64,000 bases of DNA from contig NZ_JNAR01000006.1 in assembly GCF_000760095.1 (NCBI RefSeq), forward strand, positions 1-64,000, written 5' to 3'. The stretch is from Prochlorococcus marinus str. MIT 9401. Lineage in GTDB: Bacteria > Cyanobacteriota > Cyanobacteriia > PCC-6307 > Cyanobiaceae. Of the stretch, positions 13,777 through 38,153 are shown piece after piece. Position 1 is the stretch's first letter, and each line of letters begins with the position of its first letter. The notes beneath the pieces were generated by a model that was not told where the DNA came from, did no database searches, and was given only the letters and a program-made list of their open reading frames with translations. Position numbers and translations under genes: made by a program.

Positions 13777-13984
13777 AATAAATACTTAACTAAAAGATAT
13801 TATCTCTAAATGATGTAAATTTGTGAAAAATGAAGATTGTGCAAAATATTTTTGTAACTTTTTTTGCTCTTATTAAATAAATTTTAGTTAATTTTCCTGA
13901 ACAAAAGTAGTCTCTGATTAATTTTTGTGCGAGGCAAGCGATTAATGTATTAGATAAATATTTTTCAATTTAAATAATATTCAA

Positions 13985-21692: not shown

Positions 21693-21781
21693 GTTGAATC
21701 CTCAATAACAAAGAAAATCTTAAGACATGGAAGTTCTTTTCTCCTGTTTTCCAAAAAATAAGTTTACTTAAAGAAAAAATA

Positions 21782-21881
21782 TTTACACATTTTTAGCGAT
21801 TTTGGTCTAAAATCTTCGAAGCGGAATTTATTTTCCGTTTTTATTTACACGTCTCACTTTAGAGACATACTTTACGAACTC
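21782..21881 (+). promoter_or_regulatory. psbA promoter and structured 5' leader
   Basis: A TAAAAT -10 candidate lies at 21808-21813, with TTTACA about 20 bases upstream as a poorly spaced -35 candidate. The inferred leader of about 60 bases carries two hairpins: CGGAA/TTCCG (21822-21826 with 21833-21837) followed by a T-rich tract, and GTCTC/GAGAC (21851-21855 with 21862-21866) ending 15 bases before the ATG. No Shine-Dalgarno sequence is obvious. The first hairpin resembles a weak intrinsic terminator. Confidence 0.55.
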
Positions 21882-22964
21882 ATGACAACTATTCAGCAGC
21901 AGCGTTCTTCGCTGTTAAAAGGTTGGCCACAGTTTTGTGAGTGGGTAACATCAACTAACAACAGAATTTATGTTGGTTGGTTCGGCGTCTTAATGATTCC
22001 ATGCCTTCTTACAGCAGCGGCTTGCTTCATCGTTGCATTCATCGCAGCACCACCAGTAGACATCGACGGAATTAGAGAGCCAGTTGCTGGTTCATTCCTA
22101 TATGGTAACAACATCATCTCAGGTGCAGTTGTTCCTTCATCTAACGCTATTGGTCTACACTTCTACCCAATTTGGGAAGCAGCAACTGTAGATGAGTGGT
22201 TATACAACGGTGGTCCTTACCAGCTTGTAATTTTCCACTTCCTAATTGGTATCTCAGCATACATGGGAAGACAGTGGGAGCTTTCATACCGTCTAGGTAT
22301 GCGTCCTTGGATCTGTGTTGCATACTCTGCACCAGTTTCAGCAGCTTTCGCAGTATTCCTTGTATATCCATTCGGTCAAGGTTCATTCTCTGACGGAATG
22401 CCTTTAGGTATCTCTGGAACATTCAACTTCATGTTTGTTTTCCAGGCAGAGCACAACATTCTTATGCACCCATTCCATATGGCTGGTGTTGCTGGTATGT
22501 TCGGAGGATCTTTATTCTCAGCTATGCACGGTTCACTTGTTACTTCATCTCTAATCAGAGAAACAACTGAGACAGAATCTCAGAACTATGGTTACAAGTT
22601 CGGACAAGAAGAAGAAACATACAACATCGTTGCAGCACATGGCTACTTCGGTCGTTTGATCTTCCAATATGCAAGTTTCAACAACAGCAGAAGTCTTCAC
22701 TTCTTCCTAGCTGTATTCCCAGTTGTTTGTGTATGGTTAACTTCAATGGGTATCTGCACAATGGCATTCAACCTTAACGGTTTCAACTTCAACCAGTCAG
22801 TTGTTGATGCAAACGGTAAGATTGTTCCTACATGGGGTGACGTTCTTAACAGAGCAAACCTAGGTATGGAAGTAATGCACGAGCGTAACGCTCACAACTT
22901 CCCACTTGATCTAGCAGCAGCTGAGTCTACAACAGTAGCTCTTTCAGCTCCAGCTATCGGTTAA
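21882..22964 (+). CDS. psbA: Photosystem II reaction-centre protein D1
   Basis: D1 binds P680, pheophytin, QB and most ligands of the Mn4Ca cluster in thylakoids. The 360 residues form five membrane helices. The segment [17 protein letters not shown] places Gln at the position usually numbered 130, as in D1:1-type proteins. The C-terminal processing site is present ([12 protein letters not shown], cut after the first Ala), followed by a 16-residue extension. Codon use is visibly more C-rich than in neighbouring genes, as expected for very high expression. A strong terminator follows. Confidence 0.99.
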
Positions 22965-31242: not shown

Positions 31243-32259
31243 TTACTTGTTGTGTTTCTGTAATAGATAAAGCAAAGCCATTCTTATAGGGATACCATTT
31301 GCAACTTGATTATTAATTAAGCAATTAGGATATTGATCTACCACTTTGCTGCTAATTTCAATATCTCTGTTAATGGGACCGGGATGAAGAATTGGAATTT
31401 CTTTTTTATTTAAAGATAATTTCTCTGGGGTTAAGCCATAATCCAAACTATATGAATCAATGCTACTTAGTAAATTTTCCATCATTCTCTCTTTCTGAAG
31501 TCTTAAAACAATAATCGCATCTGCAATTTTTATTGATTCTTCCAATGATCTAGAAATTGCTATAGAACCTCTTGATTTAACGGGATCTTCTGTTTGATTT
31601 GGCGCGGGGGTTTTTAAAAAATTGATAAATTCATCAGGTATTAATGTCTTAGGACCACATAAGATTATATCGGCGCCGAATGCACTCAAAGCCCAAAGAT
31701 TTGACCTAGCAACCCTTGAATGATTAACGTCGCCAATTATTAAAATTTTTTTGGAATTTAAAACCTCTGGATTTAGTGTTTTTTGGGAAAAGAATTTTAT
31801 CAATGTATAGATGTCAAGCAATCCCTGGCTGGGGTGACTATGTAATCCATCTCCTGCATTAAGAACTGAAGTCTTGGCATTTATTGCATCAAGTTTTTTT
31901 GCGATCTCAAAGGTTATGTAACTTGATGAATGTCTGATAACTAATGTATCTGCCCCCATAGCAGAATAAGTTATGGCTGTATCAATTATTGTTTCGCCTT
32001 TTGTTAAAGAGCTGGAGGATGGCGCAAACGTTTGGACATCAGCAGAAAGTCTTTTTGCTGCAAGCTCAAAACTATTTTTTGTTCTTGTACTAGCTTCAAA
32101 AAATAAAGACGTTACCAAAGTCCCTTGTAAGGCCGGTATCTTTTTTGTTCCTGCATTCTTTAATACATCAAATCTATTAGCTAATTCAAATACTGACTCA
32201 TAATCTTTAATTGAAAAATTAGCGAGTGTGTGGATATGTTTATGAGGCCAAATTTGCAT
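31243..32259 (-). CDS. pyrB: Aspartate carbamoyltransferase catalytic subunit
   Basis: It makes N-carbamoyl-aspartate, the committed step of pyrimidine synthesis. The 338-residue sequence shows the carbamoyl-phosphate loop [19 protein letters not shown], the 80s loop [13 protein letters not shown], the segment [16 protein letters not shown] with its active-site His, and the [11 protein letters not shown] loop. No regulatory subunit gene is adjacent. The glycosylase gene lies upstream by 21 bp on the same strand. Confidence 0.97.
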
Positions 32260-32280
32260 TACGCTTAAAAAGATAAATGA

Positions 32281-32865
32281 TTATTGAAATTTAGGTGTTC
32301 TGTCACCTTTTAATCTTTTACTTACACTCCTACTATTTTTGAGATACCAACGCCATTTTATATTTTTTGCCTTTGATATGCCAATTCTCGTAGTTTGAAT
32401 AAGATCTTTTTCTTCTAGAGTTGAGTCTCGTGGAGAAATCCATAAAGATTTGTTATTAAGAACTTCAAGTGAGTTAAATGAAATGTCAATACTGAATGTT
32501 TTTGTTACTAGGCCAGGTCCAGAAGCTAATCTTTCATCATTATTTGAGATAAAAACTGATCTTATCAAAACACCACTCGCAAAATTTTCTTTATCAGTAA
32601 CTATGTTTAAACAATGATGAATGCCATAAGATTTGTAAATATAAAATGTGCCAGGTTTGCCAAATAATGATTTGTTTGATTCAGTCATTTTGCGGTAGCC
32701 ATGACAGGCCTCTTCTTCCTGTGAATAAGCTTCAGTTTCAACAATGACCCCTTTAACTTGATCTATCTCATTATTTTTTTTTATGAGGTAACAGCCTATT
32801 AAATCAGGAGCAACAAGTTTAGAGTGCCGATAAAAAAAATTTTTTGGAAAGAATTCTTCTTCTAT
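32281..32865 (-). CDS. mpg: 3-methyladenine DNA glycosylase with apparent ATA start
   Basis: An AAG/MPG-type base-excision glycosylase. The first ATG (32688) would give only 135 residues and drop the catalytic half. The same frame is open upstream to a TGA at 32869-32871 and encodes EEEFFPKNFFYRHS, LVAPDLIGCYLI and VIVETEAYSQEEEACHGYRK, which match the N-terminal part of the family, including the catalytic Glu of the VETEAY motif. No ATG, GTG or TTG occurs in this stretch; ATA at 32863-32865 is the best candidate and gives 194 residues, the family length. The alternative is a start-lost pseudogene. Confidence 0.75.
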   Translation of the reverse strand: MEEEFFPKNFFYRHSKLVAPDLIGCYLIKKNNEIDQVKGVIVETEAYSQEEEACHGYRKMTESNKSLFGKPGTFYIYKSYGIHHCLNIVTDKENFASGVLIRSVFISNNDERLASGPGLVTKTFSIDISFNSLEVLNNKSLWISPRDSTLEEKDLIQTTRIGISKAKNIKWRWYLKNSRSVSKRLKGDRTPKFQ

Positions 32866-33036
32866 TTTTCAATATCTATCTAATAACATATTTAGCTGAG
32901 AAAAATAATTAAGGCTATTAATTGATATTGATTTTCAAAAAGATGTGATTATTTTTTAAAATTATTTGAAATTCAAAGGATATGTAAATAAGTTGTTCTT
33001 AATAAACTATTATTTAATAAGAAAGATATTAAATGT

Positions 33037-33330
33037 ATGACACAAATAACTAAAGAGGAAGTAAAAAAAGTTGCTCATTTAGCGAGATTAGAACTTAACG
33101 AGAATGAAATTAATAATCATGCACAACAATTAGAAAAGATATTGGATTATATAAAACAACTTGAAAAAATTGATACAGATGATGTCCCCTGTACAACGAG
33201 AGCTATAGAGGTTGTAAATGTATTTAGAAAAGACGAAAAGAAAAATTCTGATTGTAACGAAGAACTTTTAGAATTGGGTCCATCGAGAGAAGATAAATAT
33301 TTTAAAGTACCAAAAATTATTAATGAATGA
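33037..33330 (+). CDS. gatC: Aspartyl/glutamyl-tRNA amidotransferase subunit C
   Basis: GatC stabilises the GatCAB complex that converts Glu-tRNA-Gln to Gln-tRNA-Gln. The 97 residues show VKKVAHLARLELNENE, LEKILDYIKQLEKIDTDDV, and a C-terminal proline/charged wrap ending GPSREDKYFKVPKII. ATG start. It is convergent with crtR (5-bp gap) and divergent from the glycosylase gene. gatA and gatB are not in the window. Confidence 0.93.
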   Translation: MTQITKEEVKKVAHLARLELNENEINNHAQQLEKILDYIKQLEKIDTDDVPCTTRAIEVVNVFRKDEKKNSDCNEELLELGPSREDKYFKVPKIINE

Positions 33331-33335
33331 GTAAG

Positions 33336-34355
33336 TTAGTTGCTTCCAATAAATGTTTTGTTGACTAGCTTTAATAAAAATTTTTTTATCTTAAAGCCTG
33401 GATATAAATTTATGATTTTTCTTATTTTCCCCCTCTTTTTGCTATGACTCCTTACACCTATTAATAAGTCATAAATAAAGTTAAAAATGTCTTCTTTACT
33501 TTCAAATATCCCAACCCTTTGAGGGGAGCCTTTTTTATCCAATAAGGGCTTAGTTTTTTCATAAGCAATTTTGTATTCAAACCAAGGAATCGAAGGCCAT
33601 AGATGATGAATGAGATGGTAATTTTGTCCCATTATTAATAAATTCATAAATTTGCTCGGATAAACTCGAGAATTTATCCATTTATTTCTTGATCGAAATG
33701 GTCTATGGGGTAAATAATCAAAAAATATTCCTAAAGTGACTCCTACCATTAATGCTGGGCCGAACCATAAATTATAAATTAAATTCATAAAGTCAAATTT
33801 CAAACCTGCCAAGATAATTGTCAGGAATATGGATCTTTCGATTCCCCATTGTAGTAATTCATATCTTCGCCAGAGTTTTCTTTGAAAGAAAAACACCTCA
33901 TGATAAAAAAATCTTGGAGCAATTAGCCAAATTGGACCAAAAGTACTGACTATATGATCTGGATCATTTTTGGGGTGATTTACGTGAATATGATGTTGTA
34001 AATGAACTCTCGTAAAAACTGGGAAGCTAAACCCCAATAGAATAGCTGAGCCATGGCCCATTGCTTGATTTATCCAAGGAACTGGATGAGCAGCTTTATG
34101 ACAGGCATCATGAATAACAGTACCTTCAATATGTAATGCTAAAAAAGCAGTGGCTACAAGTAAAGGTAAAGGCCAAACACCTCTATACCATTGCCATATA
34201 CTAAGAAATGCAAGAAAATAACCGCCAAAAAATAAACCTAATGTTGGATTCCAAAAACTTGGCGGATCTACGTAATTTTTAATCTCTTTTTGCCAATTAA
34301 ATGTTTTTGAAGAATTAGTATTTTTCGTTGTATTTTTAATGGTTAAGTTTGAAAT
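33336..34355 (-). CDS. crtR: Beta-carotene hydroxylase CrtR, no standard start codon
   Basis: A membrane di-iron hydroxylase that makes zeaxanthin from beta-carotene. Three histidine clusters are visible: HDACHKAAH, RVHLQHHIHVNH and YHLIHHLWPS. The first box and the helix NPTLGLFFGGYFLALF lie upstream of the first available ATG (34059-34061), in one unbroken frame that reaches a TAA at 34362-34364. That stretch has no ATG, GTG or TTG codon. An ATT at 34353-34355, four bases after AAGG, is proposed as the start and gives 339 residues. The truncated 241-residue version would lack the first metal-ligand box. Confidence 0.82.
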   Translation of the reverse strand: MSNLTIKNTTKNTNSSKTFNWQKEIKNYVDPPSFWNPTLGLFFGGYFLAFLSIWQWYRGVWPLPLLVATAFLALHIEGTVIHDACHKAAHPVPWINQAMGHGSAILLGFSFPVFTRVHLQHHIHVNHPKNDPDHIVSTFGPIWLIAPRFFYHEVFFFQRKLWRRYELLQWGIERSIFLTIILAGLKFDFMNLIYNLWFGPALMVGVTLGIFFDYLPHRPFRSRNKWINSRVYPSKFMNLLIMGQNYHLIHHLWPSIPWFEYKIAYEKTKPLLDKKGSPQRVGIFESKEDIFNFIYDLLIGVRSHSKKRGKIRKIINLYPGFKIKKFLLKLVNKTFIGSN

Positions 34356-34522
34356 CGTTCCTTATATTCTTTAAATAATATAACTAATATTTTAAGGTGT
34401 TTGCATTTTTAAATGTAAAAAATTTTTTTAGTAGATATTTAATCTAATTTTATGTGTCAAAATAATCATCTTGAGTTAAAAAGTTTTTAAAATAAACATC
34501 TTTCATTTATTATTTTATTTGA

Positions 34523-34604
34523 GCGGTCGTGGCGGAATTGGTAGACGCGCGAGTTTTAGGTACTCGTATCTTCGGGTGTGGGAGTTCAAGTCTCCCCGAC
34601 CGCA
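34523..34604 (+). tRNA. tRNA-Leu (UAG)
   Basis: An 82-base class II tRNA. The acceptor GCGGTCG (34523-34529) pairs with CGACCGC (34597-34603). The anticodon stem CGAGT/ACTCG encloses TTTAGGT, which gives anticodon UAG. A long variable arm (ATCTTCGGGT region) and a T arm GGGAG-TTCAAGT-CTCCC are present. The CCA end is not encoded. Discriminator is A. Confidence 0.97.
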
Positions 34605-35126: not shown

Positions 35127-35246
35127 AACCAAATCAATTGGTTATTTGAAACATGCAAAAAAAACTACAGGTCAATTGAGAAAGAATATAATAAATTAGA
35201 TTTATTTAAAAATTCTTTTAATCAAAAATATTTTTTATATCGTTAT

Positions 35247-38153
35247 ATGAAATCTCAAAATAACAAAGAGCAAAAATCAGAATTTTCTTATAAAGAAACT
35301 TTAAATTTACTGAAAACTGACTTTTCGATGCGTGCTAACTCAATTGTAAGAGAACCTGAGATTCAGAATTTTTGGGCAAATAATAGTATCGATTTCGAGT
35401 TGGGCTCAAAGAACAAAGGCAAAACATTTACATTACATGATGGCCCACCTTATGCAAATGGAGATCTTCATATGGGTCACGCTCTTAATAAGGTTTTAAA
35501 AGACATAATAAATAAGTACAAAACCTTGAAAGGATTTAGGGTACATTATGTTCCAGGGTGGGACTGCCACGGATTACCTATTGAATTAAAAGTACTTCAA
35601 AATTTAAAATCAGACGAGAGAAGGAATCTAGATATTCTAACTCTAAGAAAAAAAGCAACAGATTATGCATATAAACAAATAAACAATCAAATGGAGGGTT
35701 TTAAAAGATGGGGCATATGGGGAGATTGGAATAACCCTTATTTAACTCTTAAGAAAAGTTATGAATCTGCTCAGATTGGAGTATTTGGGAAAATGTTTTT
35801 AAATGGCTATATATATCGAGGTCTTAAACCTGTTCATTGGAGTCCAAGTTCGAGGACTGCTCTTGCAGAAGCAGAATTAGAATATCCAGACGAACATTAC
35901 TCAAAGAGTATTTATGTATCCTTAAAAATCACTAAACTATCTGAAGAAATTTTACAGAAATTCTGTCAAGAAAATCCAAATTACAAAAAGGATTTTTTTC
36001 TGGGGAATTCTTTCATAACTATTTGGACTACCACACCCTGGACTATACCTGCAAATGAGGCAGTTGCAGTCAATCCTAAAATAGACTATGTTTTTGCAAT
36101 TGATGAAGAGAAAAGAATATACCTTTTTGCAAAGGAATTATCTTCTGAAATAAGTAAAAAATTTAATAGAGATTTAAATAGCCTGTTAGAGGTTAAGGGA
36201 TCTGAATTGGAAAATATTGAATATAAACACCCTATCGAGAATAGAAATTGCAGTATTGTGATTGGGGGAGATTACATTACTACAGAATCTGGAACTGGAA
36301 TTGTTCATACTGCACCAGGTCATGGAATAGATGATTTTAATGTGGGGCAAAAATATGATCTACCTACAACTTGCGTTGTTGATGAAAAAGGGGACTTAAA
36401 TCAATATTCAGGTCAATTTAAAGGATCAAACGTACTTAAAGACGCAAATGATTTAGTTATTGACTTTTTAAAAGAAAATAATTCACTTCTACTAAAAGAA
36501 AATTATAAGCATAGATATCCTTATGATTGGAGAACCAAAAAACCAACTATTTTTAGAGCAACAGAACAATGGTTTGCATCTGTAAATGGCTTCAGATCAT
36601 CTGCTTTAAAGGCAATAGAAGAGGTTGAATGGATGCCTGAAACCGGCAAGAAAAGAATTTATTCCATGGTCGTTGGCAGAGGAGATTGGTGTATTTCTAG
36701 ACAAAGGTCATGGGGGGTTCCAATTCCAGTTTTTTATAAAAAAAATGGTAATGAAATTCTCCTAAACAGTGAGATAATTAATCATATTCAAAAACTTTTT
36801 AATGAACACGGGGCTGATATTTGGTGGGATTGGGATATTAAGAATTTATTGCCAGAAAAATATGCAAAAGAATCTGATTTATTGAAAAAAGGGACAGATA
36901 CAATGGATGTTTGGTTCGATTCGGGATCTAGCTGGGCAGCAGTGTGTCAACAAAGAAGTGAATTAAAATATCCTGCAGATCTTTATTTGGAAGGTTCAGA
37001 TCAACATCGAGGATGGTTCCAATCTTCTTTGCTTACATCAGTTGCAGTTAATAATAAACCTCCATATAAAAAAGTTTTAACTCATGGTTTTGCACTTGAT
37101 GAAAATGGAAGAAAAATGAGTAAATCTCTCGGAAATGTTGTTGATCCAAATGTAATTATTAATGGTGGGAATAATAAAAAAAATGAACCTGCTTATGGTG
37201 CTGATGTGTTAAGGCTATGGGTAAGCTCTGTCGACTATTCTGTAGATGTTCCAATTGGTTCAAATATACTCAAGCAACTATCAGACGTTTATAGAAAAGT
37301 TCGGAACACTGCAAGATATCTTCTTGGTAATATTCATGATTATGACCCTAATATTGATAGTTTTGAAATTGATCAATTGCCAATCTTAGATCAATGGATG
37401 TTAGGCAGATTGGTTGAAGTTACTGATCAAATAACAAATGCTTATGAAAATTATGAATTTTCAAAATTTTTTCAGATTTTACAAAGTTTTTGCGTTGTAG
37501 ATTTATCAAATTTTTATTTGGATATTGCAAAGGATAGGTTATACGTTAGTTCTAAAACACAATTTAGGAGGAGATCATGTCAGTTTGTCATGTCTAGAAT
37601 TGTTGAAAGTTTAGCTGTTATTATTTCTCCAGTCCTTTGCCATATGGCTGAAGATATTTGGCAAAATATTCCATATTCAACTAAAGAAAAATCAGTATTT
37701 CAAAGAGGTTGGCCAATCTTTCCACAGTCATGGAAGAATGAAAGTCTTAATGGGCACATTACAAATTTAAGAAATTTGAGAGTTGAAATTAATAAAGCCA
37801 TAGAAGGATGTAGAAATAAACAAATAATTGGTGCCGCTTTGGAAACAGAAGTGAATTTTTTACCTGTAGATAAAGTGGTAAAAGATTCTCTTGCTTGGCT
37901 CGAGAAATTTGGTAATGGTGATGTGGATGTATTTAGGGATTGGCTAATAGTTTCAAATTTTCAAGTCATATCAGATTTGGTTGAGGATTCCATGGTTATT
38001 GAAAGCAATGAACTTGGAAAAATTCAAATTCTTAAAGCTCCTGGTCAAAAATGTGATAGATGTTGGCATTATCAAATTGAAACTTTTAGTGGGATTCAAA
38101 ACACAAAACTATGCAAAAGATGTTCAAATATTATTAATCTTGAATTTTCTTAG
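35247..38153 (+). CDS. ileS: Isoleucyl-tRNA synthetase
   Basis: A 968-residue class I synthetase. The HIGH-type motif is [16 protein letters not shown] near residue 68, the editing domain contains [12 protein letters not shown] and [12 protein letters not shown], and the KMSKS loop is [11 protein letters not shown]. The tRNA-binding WFDSGSSW motif is present. The C-terminal zinc finger reads [10 protein letters not shown] followed by CKRC. It is complete and bacterial-type. Confidence 0.98.

Follow-up and report, generated by a model that had tools for sequence, protein, structure and literature searches.

A conserved ATA codon as the probable translation start of the DNA glycosylase gene aag in Prochlorococcus

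We identified a gene for a methylpurine (3-methyladenine) DNA glycosylase, aag/mpg, in Prochlorococcus marinus str. MIT 9401 that carries no standard start codon ahead of its catalytic motif and that is, by all sequence evidence, a genuine and conserved AUN-start gene. It is encoded on the minus strand of the window, i.e. the whole stretch of 64,000 nucleotides analysed here, at 32281..32865 and comprises 194 codons plus stop when read from an ATA at 32863..32865, a codon that is invariant in all same-genus loci examined and for which the comparison argues strongly as the site of initiation. We consider it probable that aag is an intact DNA glycosylase gene with translation beginning at AUA, the codon being kept as a weak start. 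Starts of this kind are known and very rare, and as far as known aag is a new gene for them, in a phylum that is new for them as well.

An intact glycosylase frame without a standard start codon

The aag frame shows on the minus strand the order TGA (32869..32871), AAA, ATA (32863..32865) and finishes with a TAA at 32281, the TGA being an in-frame stop in the leader two codons 5' of the ATA. No ATG, GTG or TTG is present in the frame before codon 60 (32686..32688, minus strand), which is its first ATG, and the open reading frame from there encodes 135 amino acids. Upstream of the ATA the leader contains a mini-frame, ATG-TTA-TTA-GAT-AGA-TAT-TGA (32869..32889, minus strand), which is in the aag frame but closed. 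Our reading agrees with the first-pass annotation, which had described the frame as open 5' of the first ATG (32688) up to the TGA at 32869-32871, had seen no ATG, GTG or TTG upstream of 32688, and had proposed a 194-residue enzyme starting from the ATA, as opposed to 135 residues lacking the Glu of the VETEAY motif starting from the ATG.

The 194-residue product covers almost the complete Pur_DNA_glyco profile PF02245 (positions 2-180 of 181, E 2.1e-50, 171 bits at a cut-off of 27) and exceeds the cut-off of TIGR00567 (135.9 bits over 116.35), staying under the stricter equivalog cut-offs of NF002001-NF002005. A phmmer search matched the solved 3-methyladenine glycosylase structure 3qi5 (E 1e-15), which we take to be the human AAG. 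The VETEAY motif is formed by residues 42-47, and the alignment to 3qi5 places its second and last Glu at codon 45 (32731..32733, minus strand), presumably the catalytic residue matching human Glu125. The 135-residue product begins past the motif and does not contain this residue. At first pass the part upstream of the first ATG had been described as the complete N-terminal half of the MPG/AAG family, including VETEAY. The motif, allowing for VE[TAS]EAY, is present in 144 of the 146 same-genus loci and not matched in two of them (L127 and L137), and the source genome holds a single copy of aag. The domain shared nearly end to end and the VETEAY motif place the product among the AAG/MPG glycosylases (PF02245) such as 3qi5, compared to which the Prochlorococcus gene is odd in its start codon only, the protein hinting at no other activity. 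At the level of homology and purifying selection the frame is shown to encode a functional AAG-type glycosylase.

The ATA codon is invariant throughout the genus

Orthologues were obtained from a genome-contig scan (80 relatives listed out of 195) and from a family search yielding a match in 357 of 400 genomes, both sources overlapping. For the same genus 66 of the 67 other matched genomes were used, one at a contig edge being dropped, resulting in 146 loci that represent 131 distinct coding sequences; comparison of the leaders was done on 129 distinct sequence windows. Among the matches listed, the closest named relatives are Prochlorococcus genomes with up to 99% identity, and the same-genus loci cover 58-99% protein identity.

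The first-pass annotation had suggested looking at the orthologous codon at 32863-32865, and this codon is ATA in 146 of 146 loci (131 of 131 distinct coding sequences) and ATG in none. Altogether 123 of the 146 loci are devoid of any ATG, GTG or TTG from the in-frame stop to the FF anchor of the conserved core. The remaining 23 loci comprise 16 with an open-frame ATG located 16 or 17 codons before the FF anchor, four whose TTG is codon 5 or 6, and three with another standard codon further up. From -90 to +180 the ATA is the sole in-frame site holding ATA, ATT or ATC, or else ATG, GTG or TTG, in all 129 leader windows; in whatever frame, a standard start shared by all of them does not exist.

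The frame downstream of the ATA is under strong selection. No in-frame stop occurs over +0..+177 in the 129 windows, whereas each of the other frames has one in all 129. Over 400 random pairs, the dN/dS of aag is about 1.3 for columns 2-9, 0.15 for columns 10-59 and 0.18 for columns 60-190, which points to no net amino-acid constraint on codons 2-9 and to strong protein constraint from about codon 10, well before the first ATG. The alternative considered at first pass, orthologues starting at a standard codon downstream with an unconserved upstream frame, is at odds with these data, the upstream frame being conserved. Codon 60 is an ATG in 100 of the 131 distinct coding sequences and a standard start codon in 95 of the 129 windows; its incomplete presence and the dN/dS of 0.15 ahead of it rule out the codon-60 ATG as the start.

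The fraction of non-modal codons is zero at column 1 compared to 2-37% at columns 2-9, of which columns 6 and 8 vary little, so that this stretch is not wholly unconstrained. Invariance as such is not peculiar to the start, seven of 204 codon columns in the alignment being invariant, and ATA is likewise the only Ile codon used at column 169, by each of the 130 rows having Ile. Among 35 columns in which AAA, GAA or CAA is the commonest codon, ten are likewise free of any G-ending synonym; the missing ATG within the genus is therefore no proof of selection against ATG, and mutation bias can explain part of its absence. An argument for selection against AUG from the absence of ATG alone was dropped for this reason. 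A run of A6T8 at codons 7-12 (32832-32845, minus strand) is well kept in the genus and may merely reflect the residues K-N-F-F.

A Shine-Dalgarno motif is nearly absent from the leaders: an SD-like core was detected in five of 120 aag windows, and the mean minimum free energy of -4.3 kcal/mol compared to -5.9 kcal/mol for shuffled sequences (one simple base shuffle each) does not point to unusual structure. A promoter scan of the aag leader returned six sites against a shuffle mean of 10.6, i.e. no excess, and an Rfam search over 32000-34600 returned tRNA only. Two codons before the ATA, the 129 distinct windows have TGA (86), TAA (15) or a sense codon (28). An ATG at -24 is present in 92 of the 129, the frame being open from this ATG to the ATA in 10 of the 92.

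AUN-only aag loci in related genera

To cover other genera we used 112 distinct loci from 42 genera of the family, representing part of the matches, two more loci being dropped at contig edges. The family presumably corresponds to the marine picocyanobacteria, some of its genera being Synechococcus-like. In 51 of the 112 loci, distributed over 15 of the 42 genera, no standard start exists from the stop to the anchor, and all 51 hold ATA, ATT or ATC. Genera g11 (3 of 4 loci), g39 (3 of 3) and g50 (1 of 1) show an ATA nine codons before the anchor as in Prochlorococcus aag. The loci without standard start of g56 (29 of 30) mostly have ATC, sometimes ATT or ATA, and those of g34 (5 of 16) have ATC with or without ATA, the leaders in g34 not being AT-rich. 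The other 61 of the 112 loci have an ATG, GTG or TTG on offer, which does not imply the use of that codon, and a weak start is therefore not obligatory for aag. One locus of g44 (L256) has an ATG where the related loci L243, L247 and L235 read 'CCC ATA GCC ACC', hinting that this column is the start. A tree of 87 rows requires a minimum of 15 switches between loci with a standard start on offer and AUN-only loci, six of them forced by well-supported branches and all of them undirected. Taken over the family, the sequences suggest that the AUN start of aag is probably old.

Clear candidates for AUN starts are limited to aag and crtR in the regions surveyed

A second gene without standard start, crtR, encodes a beta-carotene hydroxylase (33336..34355, minus strand) with the ATT at 34353-34355 as candidate start. 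Its product matches NF045688 with an E-value of 3.1e-141 and 469.7 bits, slightly under the cut-off of 475. Across 76 distinct same-genus loci the start column is ATT in 74 and ATC in two; 69 of the 76 are free of ATG, GTG and TTG between the upstream stop and codon 36, and in four the codon just before the start column is an ATG. In all of 30 genomes from 16 other genera a standard start is on offer for crtR (29 ATG, one TTG only), so that the AUN start of crtR seems to be an innovation of this genus. The starts of aag and crtR are separated by about 1.5 kb, and gatC lies between the two genes. The gene infC was matched in 41 genomes and starts with ATG in 20 of the 20 same-genus loci examined, ruling it out as a co-regulated AUN gene. 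With infC having a plain ATG, a feedback loop via IF3 of the E. coli type is not evident here.

We surveyed 256 kb of two same-genus genomes and counted, for 229 conserved frames, how many codons align before a standard start first occurs. At least eight such codons were found in 35 of the 229 frames and at least 25 only in aag and crtR, a putative rRNA block excepted; seven of the 35 frames lie in this putative rRNA operon (121,960-126,756 on the joined stretch of G117). A general AUN-start habit of the genome is ruled out, aag and crtR being the only clear cases in the 256-kb survey. A looser first test, comparing the window with two relatives, had flagged 20 of 71 frames. Besides aag and crtR these include one frame cut by the window edge. 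Of the others, frames 35127-38150 and 21762-22961 have the latest first standard start, at codon 40, and are ordinary, the ATG being shared and the upstream alignment containing stops or representing a conserved leader; the rest reach a standard start by codon 24, except for the short frame 13793-13969 without any. The segment 21762-21881 (plus strand), just 5' of the ATG of frame 21762-22961, is strongly conserved in two relatives, suggestive of a conserved leader; the product of this frame, judged by eye, presumably resembles PsbA.

Alternative explanations for the ATA codon

The first-pass annotation had left two options, a very rare ATA start in use or a start that was lost recently. The conservation and the purifying selection strongly support the former. 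A recent start loss or a sequencing error, leaving a dying or mis-assembled gene, has practically no probability left: the same ATA recurs in 146 of 146 loci (131 distinct) from many assemblies, and the conserved core shows a dN/dS of 0.15-0.18, excluding this option. Almost as improbable is a true start at the upstream ATG, from which ribosomes would reach the aag frame by stop readthrough or frameshifting. Such a start would be compatible with the 10 of 129 windows in which the frame is open from the -24 ATG through the ATA, and with the well-kept A6T8 run at codons 7-12, but the codon two before the ATA varies between stops and sense codons (TGA 86, TAA 15, sense 28), the ATG is missing in 37 of 129 windows and all frames lack a universal standard start. 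As a general start the upstream ATG with readthrough is ruled out, this ATG being present in 92 of 129 windows and followed by an open frame in 10. Termination-reinitiation, in which the mini-frame from ATG to TGA is translated and the ribosome restarts at the AUA shortly behind the stop, is in line with many leaders, 82 of the 129 windows combining an ATG at -24 with an in-frame stop before the ATA and TGA being the commonest codon two before it (86 of 129). We still regard it as very unlikely, as 37 of the 129 windows do without that ATG and 28 without a stop two codons before the ATA, many of these being divergent and all of them keeping the ATA.

The chief rival accepts initiation at AUA and regards the codon as a remnant of mutation pressure towards AT, i.e. 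ATG drifted to ATA in a gene of low demand in which the loss of output was neutral, the weak start being tolerated rather than selected. In its favour, third-position A-to-G changes are rare in aag, crtR as the second such gene has ATT here and standard starts on offer in other genera, and for aag a standard start is on offer at 61 of the 112 loci outside the genus. Against it, none of the 131 distinct coding sequences departs from ATA at the start column, whereas columns 2-9 show 2-37% non-modal codons, AUN-only loci also exist in g34 with leaders that are not AT-rich, and switches from AUG to AUU are exceedingly scarce, with one case among 61,358 reconstructed ancestral AUG starts (PMC5622118). 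In balance we consider neutral drift an unlikely explanation, though one that has to be taken seriously.

A model for a weak start of aag

According to the reading we prefer, in which the AUA is kept as a weak start, AUA would be the initiation codon as the only invariant candidate in a region where most neighbouring codons drift. The initiator tRNA would pair with AUA despite a mismatch at the third position, the leader having no Shine-Dalgarno motif. Judging from AUN starts elsewhere, initiation would be inefficient and subject to proofreading by IF3, which is described to disfavour weak third-position pairs in vitro (PMC10158994). AAG output is proposed to be low because of this inefficient, IF3-proofread initiation, making low expression of aag from the ATA start plausible. 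Raised levels of human AAG have been linked to mutation in repeats (PMC5363859), and harm caused by an excess of AAG may be the reason for its scarcity in Prochlorococcus as well. That low output is favoured since excess glycosylase would be harmful is the weakest step of this model. In its full form, the model holds that a selected, IF3-proofread AUN start on leaders lacking a Shine-Dalgarno motif keeps AAG low in marine picocyanobacteria, the codon wandering between AUA, AUC and AUU among genera with its weakness kept, and that the nearby crtR was recruited to this mode in the Prochlorococcus genus studied here. We put this forward tentatively, as a possibility that we would rate somewhat below an even chance.

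Bacterial genes starting with AUN codons are known from E. coli, in which infC and pcnB have AUU starts. Prochlorococcus aag resembles these in being a complete gene with an AUN codon as its only start, and weak initiation would likewise result in a scarce product. E. coli infC is autoregulated by IF3 (PMC13009471), whereas aag encodes a DNA glycosylase and infC of this genus begins with ATG in all 20 loci examined. The same source describes conserved AUN starts for ccpN of S. aureus and B. subtilis (AUA), S. aureus cvfC1 (AUU) and S. aureus infC (AUA), and gives for S. aureus reporters of ccpN and citZ (both AUA) and cvfC1 (AUU) about 10% of the AUG output in poor medium, the ccpN reporter reaching up to 30% in rich medium (PMC13009471). 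Similar to the AUA or AUU starts of S. aureus ccpN, cvfC1 and infC, the AUA start of aag is conserved across relatives. The S. aureus genes, belonging to another phylum, have strong extended Shine-Dalgarno motifs, a trait of these cases rather than of AUN-start genes in general, in contrast to the SD-like core in five of 120 aag windows, and the aag codon varies among genera between ATA, ATC and ATT. Among the open-licence papers listed, titles and abstract openings pointed to none on an AUN start of aag or on AUN starts in Prochlorococcus. We know of no earlier AUN-start gene set in cyanobacteria.

If the AUN start is indeed selected, a repair and a carotenoid enzyme would both depend on how stringently start codons are selected, in a lineage without an AUN start in infC. 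Being genus-wide and having its like in many related genera, the AUN start of aag provides a natural test case for translational attenuation that operates in the absence of Shine-Dalgarno motifs. Gene finders limited to ATG, GTG and TTG would be expected to cut AAG past VETEAY, and owing to such shortened calls, aag could be miscounted when DNA-repair genes are surveyed in Prochlorococcus.

Apparent insertions into aag in other genera

Several other-genus (Synechococcus-like) genomes contain extra 5' fragments of aag, found in L381 (1568-7137), L382 (1744-5443), L383 (1851-9349) and L388 (3651-5456), with further 5' fragments in L384-L387 and L389-L393. For seven of seven fragments compared with one intact aag, homology ends within the same seven bases, at about codon 88 ('GIHHCV'). 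In L381, L382 and L383 the fragment lies 3-7 kb upstream of an intact aag on the same strand. A tyrosine recombinase follows the fragment in L381 and L383 (PF00589), with a similar protein in L388 and pieces only in L382; of the 14 stretches compared, the remaining 10, including one intact aag locus, gave no recombinase by similarity. It looks as if elements encoding tyrosine recombinases insert site-specifically in aag and supply the gene with a new 5' end including leader and start.
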